From contig JAHECO010000033.1 of NCBI GenBank assembly GCA_024641705.1, positions 1 through 41,930 of the forward strand: a stretch of DNA of 41,930 bases. The letters run 5' to 3'. The DNA is from Candidatus Kryptoniota bacterium. Lineage in GTDB: Bacteria; Bacteroidota; Ignavibacteria; Kryptoniales; JAKASW01. A program made the position numbers and the translations under genes. The stretch's first letter is position 1, and each line of letters starts with the position of its first letter. Under the pieces are notes generated by a model, which saw nothing but the letters and a program-made list of their open reading frames with translations, was not told the origin of the DNA and did not search any database. Shown one piece after another: positions 33,452 through 35,634 of the stretch.

Positions 33452-33461
33452 TGTGCATCTC

Positions 33462-34133
33462 TCAAATTTTGTAAGCCACGGCGACCCCATCCCTCACCGG
33501 GACGATCGAAGCCGCGAAATCTGTTCTGGTGAAAAGTCTGCGGTTGAATTCCTTGATTGCCTCAGTGGAGATATCGGCCTTTTTTTCGGTTACTTTACCG
33601 GACCAGAGCACGTTGTCCGCAACGAGGAGTCCTCCTTCCCTGATACGCGGCACGGCCTTGTCGAGCGCGGCAGGGTATCCCTGCTTATCAATGTCGATAA
33701 AGATTATGTCGAAATCACCTTCGACCTGGTCGATTATCTCGAGCGCGTTGCCGACATGATATTTGACGCGGTGTTGAAGACCCGCCTCCCGAAGATAGGT
33801 CTCCCCTTTCTCGCGGTTCGCCTCGCTTCCTTCAGTACAGTGGATCTCCCCGCCTTCTGCCGCGAGCGCCCACCAGTACCGCTCAATTATCACATATATG
33901 TATGCGGCATGCCGCAAAGCGGCAAATGCAGAATAACCGAACCCGGAACCCATTTCGAATATACGCCGGGCATTCACCATCCTGGCGAGCTGGTACAGCA
34001 GCTTCCCCACGAGGGGGCCAACTATCGGGAAATCTCTTTCCCGCGCCTCGGCCTCCATCTTTGCCAGCACTTGATGACGGGGACCGTAAAGGTCTCCCAG
34101 ATATTTTTCTATATTCGAATCGACTATTTGCAT
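33462..34133 (-). CDS. Caffeoyl-CoA-type O-methyltransferase with a palindromic in-frame insertion
   Basis: A SAM-dependent O-methyltransferase (Methyltransf_3/24), predicted soluble, substrate unknown. The 223-residue protein has IFEMGSGFGYSAF (motif I, 58-70), HCTEGS, GNALEIID, the metal/catalytic IIFIDIDKQGYP and LVADNVLWSGKV, the family's landmarks. Between FGYSA and YWWAL there is a 16-residue stretch (70-85) that I do not expect in the family and that is encoded by palindrome-rich DNA (33879-33926). The ATG follows GGGAGGG. Located downstream of the flippase gene with a 46-base gap. Confidence 0.88.
   Translation of the reverse strand: MQIVDSNIEKYLGDLYGPRHQVLAKMEAEARERDFPIVGPLVGKLLYQLARMVNARRIFEMGSGFGYSAFAALRHAAYIYVIIERYWWALAAEGGEIHCTEGSEANREKGETYLREAGLQHRVKYHVGNALEIIDQVEGDFDIIFIDIDKQGYPAALDKAVPRIREGGLLVADNVLWSGKVTEKKADISTEAIKEFNRRLFTRTDFAASIVPVRDGVAVAYKI
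33879..33926. repeat. 48-base in-frame palindromic insertion within the O-methyltransferase gene
   Basis: Contains three palindromes in series: ACATATATGT (33892-33901), GCGGCATGCCGC (33904-33915) and GCCGC-AAA-GCGGC (33911-33923). The length is divisible by three and the frame stays open, adding residues 70-85 of the enzyme. Boundaries are inferred from the family pattern. Confidence 0.5.
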
Positions 34134-34179
34134 CCGACCCTCCCGAAAGACTTTCAGTCGTGGATATTGCCTGGAAGGC

Positions 34180-35634
34180 TTAGTTCACTATGAATTGCAT
34201 TTTCCTGAGGTTGACCACGCGGACCGACTTCGTGGCCAGCGCCACACCGGCAAACACGCCGGCAAAAGCCACACATTCAACGACGAAACGCAGATATACA
34301 TTCCCGAAGAGTCCGCGGACGAACAGGAGTGGGACCAGCCCGACCGCAGAAATGATCACGACCTTGAACATCTTCATCCACGGAAACATCTCCACGACAT
34401 TCGATTTGAGCAGGAACGTAAGAACTCCGACCAGGACGACAACCTGCAGGTACGTCACAATCACCTTCCCGATCGCCGCGCCTTCCAGCCCGTAAATCCG
34501 GAGGAGGAAGTACGATGCGAGACCGCTGAGGAACATCTCCGCAACCGAAGCGTACATATAGAATTTCTGTTTGCCGAGTGAGAAAAGAGCCTGGCTGTAA
34601 AACGCGAGTCGAAGAGGAAGAAGGAGTAGGAAGATCCTGAAGATGCCCGCGCTCACTACGTACTTGCTGCCGAAAAAGAAACCCATGAAATCGTTCGCCG
34701 AGAAAAGGAGGAACACCATGAGTGGGAGGAGAAAGAATCCCGTTTTTGATATGGAATTGCGCCAGATCTGGATAAACTTCCCGCGCATCTCCGTCGAGCC
34801 GAGCTCGCTGAACACCGGGAAAAGCACGGCGGATGCGGAACCTGTAATCACGGCGATCAACGGCAGCTCTTTCGAGCCGATAGCGTAAACAGCAAACTTG
34901 TCGGGTGAAAAAAACAAAGTGACGAGGTATCTGTCTATCTGCTTGCTGATCGTGCCGGCGATTCCGCTGACAAGGATCGGAAGCGCGTAGAGGAGCTGCG
35001 CCTTCATTACCGTCGAAAGCCCGCCTGAAAAGAATTTGCGCGCACGCGCCAGGAAAATGAAGAGGTAAACCGATTTCACCGCGCCGATGAAGGCGATGGA
35101 GATAAAGACAATCGTCAGGCTGTGGAAAAAGAGGGCCGCTATCAGGACCGACGCCGCAAAGAGGACGGCGAGGATGAGATTCCCCCAGAGCAGGAGCCCT
35201 ACTTTCCGTTCCGTCACGAATATCGATTCGAACATTAGCGAAGGCGAAGAGAGAACGGCGTACACCGCGAAGATGCGAATGTATTCGGTCAGCGCTTCGG
35301 CGCCGAACCAGCGAGCTATCAGCGGGGCGAAAACGGCGAGGACTATTCCGGATGCCACACCGATTATGGTGGCAGCGGCTATGGCGGAGGAGTAGACCGC
35401 GCGTCTGTCCTCGCGGGCGGAGAAGTAGTAGACAGAACTGCTGAGCCCGTACCCGACCAGCGGCAGGAAGGAGTTGTACACGAGCCAGACCTGCTCGTAG
35501 TTGCCGTACTCCGAACGCGTGAGGAGACGCGTCAGAATCATCGAAGCAGCCAGGAGCCCGAGAATGTTTACGAGCTTCGACACACCGACGAGGCCGGCAC
35601 TCTGCGTCAGCGAAAACTCTTCGGGCTTCTCCAT
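34180..35634 (-). CDS. Polysaccharide/oligosaccharide flippase (Wzx/MATE-like)
   Basis: A 484-residue inner-membrane protein with about 12-14 hydrophobic segments, beginning with the family-typical TQSAGLVGVSKLVNILGLLAASMILTRLLTRSEYGNYEQ. It is predicted to flip lipid-linked sugars or related amphiphiles across the membrane. The start at 35634 shares a base with the preceding gene's stop (TGATG); a frame extending further upstream lies within that gene. With a FemAB-like transferase ahead and an O-methyltransferase after it, it may serve cell-surface glycan or exopolysaccharide export, but no glycosyltransferase is nearby. Confidence 0.88.
   Translation of the reverse strand: MEKPEEFSLTQSAGLVGVSKLVNILGLLAASMILTRLLTRSEYGNYEQVWLVYNSFLPLVGYGLSSSVYYFSAREDRRAVYSSAIAAATIIGVASGIVLAVFAPLIARWFGAEALTEYIRIFAVYAVLSSPSLMFESIFVTERKVGLLLWGNLILAVLFAASVLIAALFFHSLTIVFISIAFIGAVKSVYLFIFLARARKFFSGGLSTVMKAQLLYALPILVSGIAGTISKQIDRYLVTLFFSPDKFAVYAIGSKELPLIAVITGSASAVLFPVFSELGSTEMRGKFIQIWRNSISKTGFFLLPLMVFLLFSANDFMGFFFGSKYVVSAGIFRIFLLLLPLRLAFYSQALFSLGKQKFYMYASVAEMFLSGLASYFLLRIYGLEGAAIGKVIVTYLQVVVLVGVLTFLLKSNVVEMFPWMKMFKVVIISAVGLVPLLFVRGLFGNVYLRFVVECVAFAGVFAGVALATKSVRVVNLRKMQFIVN

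Follow-up and report, generated by a model that had tools for sequence, protein, structure and literature searches.

Palindromic elements of Rickettsia (RPE) were reportedly described by Ogata et al. in 2000 and 2002. In that genus palindromic inserts kept in frame within genes are established, and RPE are described as stretches of 100-150 bp encoding a conserved peptide (PMC10969869, PMC3767692). A CGTC end is reported for some RPE, including those of R. conorii. A study of tagged REP repeats reports in-gene, in-frame copies in other bacteria, states that the host species of CGTC repeats carry RAYT or IS200 genes unflanked by the repeat, and gives for MITEs a length of 70-300 bp with terminal repeats of 15-30 bp (PMC3733652). 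In-frame palindromic inserts are discussed mainly for Rickettsia and Wolbachia; the elements considered here would form a separate family of Bacteroidetes for which close empty alleles are at hand. A literature search, with most subscription papers outside reach, returned no earlier description of this 48-bp element family, and nothing was found on in-frame palindromes in Bacteroidetes.

The window, that is the whole stretch of 41,930 nucleotides analysed, belongs to contig JAHECO010000033.1 of a Candidatus Kryptoniota bacterium. The original prediction, made from the letters alone, placed in one of its genes, coding for an O-methyltransferase, a palindrome-rich insertion of 48 bases that keeps the reading frame and recalls the elements of Rickettsia. 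The features concerned are the following.

33462 to 34133, minus strand: host gene, SAM-dependent O-methyltransferase (Methyltransf_3), from the ORF, Pfam, homologue alignment and PDB comparison
33877 to 33924, plus strand: inserted copy of the 48-bp palindromic element, a repeat with two hairpins; absent from 19/19 other aligned homologues and matched by model R1
33877 to 33882, plus strand: hairpin 1, 5' arm TACCGC, whose second base (S in the family) is mismatched in this copy, from copy comparison and covariation
33892 to 33901, plus strand: AT-rich palindrome ACATATATGT within the long hairpin-1 loop, seen in the sequence; this loop differs among copies
33904 to 33909, plus strand: hairpin 1, 3' arm GCGGCA, from copy comparison and covariation
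33910 to 33915, plus strand: hairpin 2, 5' arm TGCCGC, from folding and covariation
33919 to 33924, plus strand: hairpin 2, 3' arm GCGGCA, with a three-base loop AAA at 33916-33918, from folding and covariation

The O-methyltransferase ORF is uninterrupted and codes for 223 amino acids, and the Pfam match (E 6e-28, residues 38-223) spans the insert, which bears out the proposed frame-preserving insertion. Relatives of the gene were matched in 24 of 41 genomes (the own genome and 40 relatives); the viral collection gave none for the structure alignment. The alignment comprised 20 loci, the window gene and 19 others, with L058 and L060-L063 excluded. The 16 extra residues (A71-Y86 or F70-R85) are present solely in the window's enzyme, and in all 19 other homologues, seven of which are from the same genus, GYSA-x or its equivalent runs straight into the next helix. 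The direct continuity that had been expected between the motifs FGYSA and YWWAL is thus the rule, and the segment is not one conserved among close orthologues. Same-genus orthologues (80-82% identity) measure 621 bp against 669 in the window, and the DNA alignment with four of them (80-82% protein identity) showed exactly 48 bases missing, between the GYSA-F codons and the WWAL codons. A gap of 16 residues was also found against PDB 3c3p, the best match among solved structures, and a single-sequence structure model of the enzyme reached a mean pLDDT of 49.7, too low for use.

The DNA alignment upheld the length of 48 bases and moved the coordinates, first given as 33879-33926, by two bases. 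The bounds 33877-33924, running from a T to an A, carry an uncertainty of one to three bases and were preferred because they agree with other copies having unambiguous ends. The three palindromes noticed at the outset were confirmed as ACATATATGT (33892-33901), GCGGCATGCCGC (33904-33915) and the hairpin TGCCGCAAAGCGGCA (33910-33924). Folding of this single copy is unremarkable (z -0.9 and -1.4), so that the argument is carried by the further copies and the empty sites. An open frame of 246 codons on the plus strand (window 33453-34193) covers the whole methyltransferase gene in antisense and is probably a by-product of codon usage.

A BLAST search with the 48-bp stretch returned more copies from the own genome, the best two with E 1.6e-6 and 85-87% identity. 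A covariance model, R1, was built from six copies, and its best match in the own genome is the window copy (E 3.9e-13), itself one of the six model-building sequences; this genome gave 50 matches at E <= 10, of which 22 had E < 0.03. Many copies thus exist, both outside and inside genes, and the chance that the genome holds no others, which had been left open, is removed. Across the genus, all 13 genomes were matched at E <= 0.1, with 2 to 67 matches per genome. In a sample of the class, 23/149 genomes were matched at E <= 0.001; they comprise all 13 genomes of the window genus, six from genus g6 and a further four. The sister family of the window genus gave matches in none of its seven listed genomes. 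In a sample of the phylum only 5/296 genomes were matched at E <= 1e-4, all from the same class. An exact-pattern search of a named genome collection found 11 stretches, every record being titled Bacteroidetes bacterium, and the exact pattern was not found in viral contigs. The range of the element family is therefore narrow and patchy. In genus g6 of the same class (L280-L283) the elements share this plan but differ in the loop, and none were seen in the sister family.

Manual removal of opposite-strand doubles and overlapping-locus repeats brought the 191 model matches down to 170, and filters for flank similarity leave 132, 131 and 98 element copies for different tests. Genomes contain up to tens of copies, most of them outside clear genes. 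When the codon usage of both flanks was tested over 168 copies, with a sensitivity of 46%, only those in O-methyltransferase and leuB were called in frame, which hints that the majority are extragenic. Pfam was applied to the ORFs of 20 loci drawn from 37 element-spanning ORF rows, small ORFs being counted as chance; the element falls within a domain in ccmF (in G000, the own genome, and in G002) and in leuB, and at the remaining loci it is outside the domain, at its edge, or no domain is present. We consider, with a probability of roughly 85%, that this genus has a short mobile repeat, non-coding and non-autonomous, and that the 48 bases are one of its inserted copies.

The element consists of two adjacent hairpins, TSCCGC..GCGGSA followed by TSCCGCnnnGCGGSA. 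The loop of hairpin 1 has about 20 bases and is variable and AT-rich, that of hairpin 2 has about three bases, and in the six-base arms the pairing is kept while the letters change. In an alignment of 118 distinct rows 95% of the stem cells pair, with 99 double-changed cells against 29.5 in shuffles; the covariation score was reached in 0/500 shuffles and slid structures scored far lower. The model served to fit this alignment, and its rows are related to one another, with some palindromes present in both strand readings; a MAFFT alignment of the six founding copies points the same way, though less strongly. The commonest lengths among 131 copies are 51 and 48 bp, and a variant ends in GGCGCnnnGCGCTCA. 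No Rfam family was matched in a search with the element.

The likeness to RPE lies in short palindromic repeats that occur in frame in unrelated conserved genes and also outside genes, that are missing from some orthologues, and that possibly have hot spots where different elements share one place. In-frame insertion in conserved genes, absent from orthologues, is found in O-methyltransferase, ccmF and leuB. The differences are that the element is mostly 48 or 51 bp long and a double hairpin, against 100-150 bp for RPE, and that it is read in different frames and strands where RPE have a conserved peptide. Its host is a class of Bacteroidetes, unlike that of RPE, and at the sequence level the comparison with RPE covered the CGTC tag. 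The suggested kinship with the Rickettsia elements thus stood for the behaviour (in frame, in conserved genes, at several sites) and not for the membership, given 48 bp against 100-150 and no CGTC end. The view of in-gene palindromes as a speciality of Rickettsia needs softening, in-gene REP repeats being described for other bacteria (PMC3733652).

REP repeats (GTAG/CGTC) and the REPIN/RAYT system resemble the element in being small, GC-rich, dispersed hairpins, mostly outside genes and sometimes in frame inside them, and a further resemblance to CGTC repeats is that no transposase adjoins (PMC3733652). The differences concern the tags, the stems and the plan. The tag GTAG was found in 0/132 copies, with GGAG once, as its complement on the right flank; CGTC was found in 0/132 and CCTC in none, with TGTC once on the right flank (complement) and once as the first four bases. 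The stem of CGTC REP has 8-9 bp, whereas here there are six pairs, and the element is made of two unlike hairpins side by side. GTAG REP and REPIN have a RAYT gene flanked by the repeat; here two weak matches were found in 50 Y1 loci. The element shares the behaviour of RPE and REP but, with neither GTAG nor CGTC in any of 132 copies, stands outside the tagged families. MITEs usually make target duplications, whereas the element has about 48 bp, six-base arms and no target duplication. Its likeness to MITE and ERIC/RU sequences is that they are non-autonomous and can make in-frame fusions (PMC10969869, PMC2759123).

Three conserved genes of the own genome contain the element in frame: O-methyltransferase, ccmF (twice) and leuB. 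The ccmF alignment covered 13/13 genomes of the genus, 10 of them empty at this gene. The own genome (G000) has inserts of 48 and 48 bp and G002 one of 48 bp, all in frame, and G001 has a segment of 45 bp with an eroded appearance at the same place as an insert. In leuB of the own genome a double hairpin of 30 bp adds 10 residues in frame, which form a gap against PDB 3u1h and 1a05. Nine of ten other leuB orthologues examined are empty; the tenth, from G004 (L263), has at the same place a different palindromic insert of 84 bp, also in frame and independent of the former. In G010 one element copy is in frame in an IS21-like transposase gene and a second copy in that gene breaks the frame, leaving the downstream part out of frame. 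Near gene ends, further copies appear in frame from the sequence itself, among them a C-terminal one in a gene of M16-type peptidase in the own genome and one near the N-terminus of a peroxiredoxin-like gene of G006, both genes being named by reading the sequence.

Concerning the ends, T is the first base in 126/131 copies and A the last in 109/131, and the inner four-base ends match perfectly in 24/131 only. In G008 (L213/L214, 1501-1594) a 46-bp element is cleanly inserted within another 48-bp element; this nested copy (L214) has unambiguous ends T...A and no duplication. At the sites in O-methyltransferase, ccmF and leuB and at the nested one, any target duplication is limited to an ambiguity of one base. 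The junction of ccmF insert 1 is ambiguous by one base. Among 98 copies outside known genes, T is found two bases before the element in 80% and G as the fourth base after it in 57%. The preference was learned on these 98 copies, outside the genes whose empty sites were scored. In the element's own orientation the empty site of ccmF insert 2 ranked in the top 0.2%, that of ccmF insert 1 in the top 4% and the nested one in the top 16%; the leuB site, where the element is symmetric, stood at 9% in either orientation. The O-methyltransferase site stood at 30% in the element's orientation (p 0.30) and in the top 0.8% when either orientation was allowed (p 0.008), that is, this junction fits the motif only when read against the orientation of the element. 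Fisher combination of the five empty sites gave p 9e-4 with own orientation and 2e-4 with either orientation. A weak sequence preference of the junctions is in part shown by these data.

At ccmF an allele pair was found in which 2,048 bp of a contig binned with G007 align to G002 with two mismatches and one 48-bp gap. The whole contig of 5,997 bases (L304, G007:C59, against L305, G002:C73) is about 97-99% identical in long pieces, but leuB of G002 and G007 is only 81% identical, so the G007 contig was either transferred or wrongly binned. Whichever its origin, it holds a ccmF allele differing by the element, and the direction may be gain or precise loss. The ccmF inserts of G000 and G002 have 45/48 bases in common by hand count, the surrounding loci are 72% identical, and in the tree empty relatives are placed between the two genomes. 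We infer that the shared site is better explained by independent insertion, or by transfer of a tiny tract, than by inheritance from a common ancestor followed by numerous precise losses. The allele pair, together with the recurrent ccmF and leuB sites, makes the mover enzyme and the tolerance of residues testable.

For random landings of the 131 copies, about 33% would keep the frame and stay open. Lengths divisible by three were found in 72/131, above one third; this excess is no clean test of frame selection because subfamilies share lengths. The element is read in different frames and strands in O-methyltransferase and in the two ccmF copies, so no peptide is conserved and selection for one would be absent. 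Copies inside genes may persist through their size and composition, since lengths of 48 or 51 bases preserve the frame and roughly half of the frames through the element are free of stops, and a host gene would gain 16-17 tolerated residues per insertion. It is tempting to speculate, with considerable reserve, that an active family of untagged double hairpins of about 48 bases inhabits one lineage of Bacteroidetes, inserting as a single strand, with sequence preference and without duplication, landing recurrently at the same ccmF and leuB codon positions across species, readable in about one third of its landings, and still adding 10-17 residues to working enzymes.

Other readings of the segment were weighed against these data. 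A segment of purely protein-level origin, either an ordinary insertion or a loop ancestral to the enzyme, with palindromes arising by chance, would agree with the kept frame and the unremarkable residues; the segment is nevertheless absent from every other homologue aligned, and the same DNA recurs elsewhere, outside genes and inside unrelated ones in different frames. This reading was rejected on the other copies and the empty sites and is extremely improbable. Hardly better placed is a bypass in which RNA hairpins would make the ribosome or a nuclease skip or remove the segment, the protein being made without it. Short hairpin inserts are bypassed in some yeast mitochondria, and the hairpins and clean ends of the element would suit such a process; the inserts in conserved genes are, however, in frame and stop-free, which bypass would not need, and the frame-breaking copy in the IS21-like transposase leaves its downstream part out of frame, so that this candidate too was rejected. 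The possibility that the insert inactivated the methyltransferase, leaving a young pseudogene whose frame is not yet lost, is compatible with a mobile-element origin and appears doubtful rather than remote. The insert follows, by alignment, directly on a segment which we take to be SAM-binding motif I, and the window enzyme has slightly more residues unique at otherwise invariant columns than its relatives (five against 0-3 in four relatives). The gene may also be called dispensable because 3/12 same-genus genomes have no match to it, with only partial weak matches in 2. On the other side, it has no stop and no frameshift or other frame damage, and dN to the four relatives is low (0.11-0.13) with dS saturated, beyond range, though most of this divergence may predate the insertion.

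If the 48 bases are a mobile repeat, as preferred here, an enzyme supplied in trans would move it, most plausibly one recognising DNA hairpins, such as a Y1 (IS200/IS605-like, HUH) transposase. Such an enzyme is favoured because its chemistry uses hairpins, does not duplicate the target and favours a short target sequence on the 5' side, in keeping with the hairpins, the absent duplication and the target preference of the element; it would act in trans on single-stranded DNA, in the manner of RAYT on REP and REPIN. Y1_Tnp genes above the Pfam cut-off are present in 12/13 genomes of the genus, and the one genome devoid of them has the fewest element matches (2). Between element copies and Y1 number the Pearson coefficient is 0.80 (p 0.001), but the rank correlation falls short of significance (Spearman 0.53, p 0.065). 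Moreover, the element was found beside Y1 genes at only 2 of the 50 Y1 loci scanned (50 of 61 Y1 rows), both matches weak, and the lack of the GTAG tag also argues against this route. On the Y1-gene, correlation and flanking evidence together the Y1 route is therefore possible, with the odds somewhat against it. Rather less probable is a very small MITE on whose terminal arms, T-SCCGC...GCGGS-A, an ordinary DDE or other transposase would act. The prevalence of T as first and A as last base, and the ability of the arms to pair end to end, speak for it; the scarcity of perfect inner ends and the empty sites devoid of target duplication speak against it, and no larger sequence sharing these ends was noticed, the search for autonomous parents having covered the Y1 loci.

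Other repeats were observed around some copies and near one transposase gene. In L068, L097, L100, L107 and L109, from several genomes, similar flanks surround the element, with GCCATTTTTTC..CCTTGA..TTTTC on one side and, in some, TTTGGTTCTTTC..TCAAG on the opposite side; by their letters, these copies would lie within one same larger intergenic repeat. In G006 (L135, 1200-2500) a Y1 transposase gene is situated amid a series of short palindromes of other sequence (CCATCCGTTGAAACGGACGG, CCGCCTCTGGCGG), an arrangement which looks REP/RAYT-like and probably has no relation to the 48-bp element. In three genomes of the genus (L092, L093 and L094, about 1461-1590) an outer inverted repeat ATTCCCGA...TCGGGAAT, or similar, encloses the element, and presumably it resembles a CGTC-type REP sequence.
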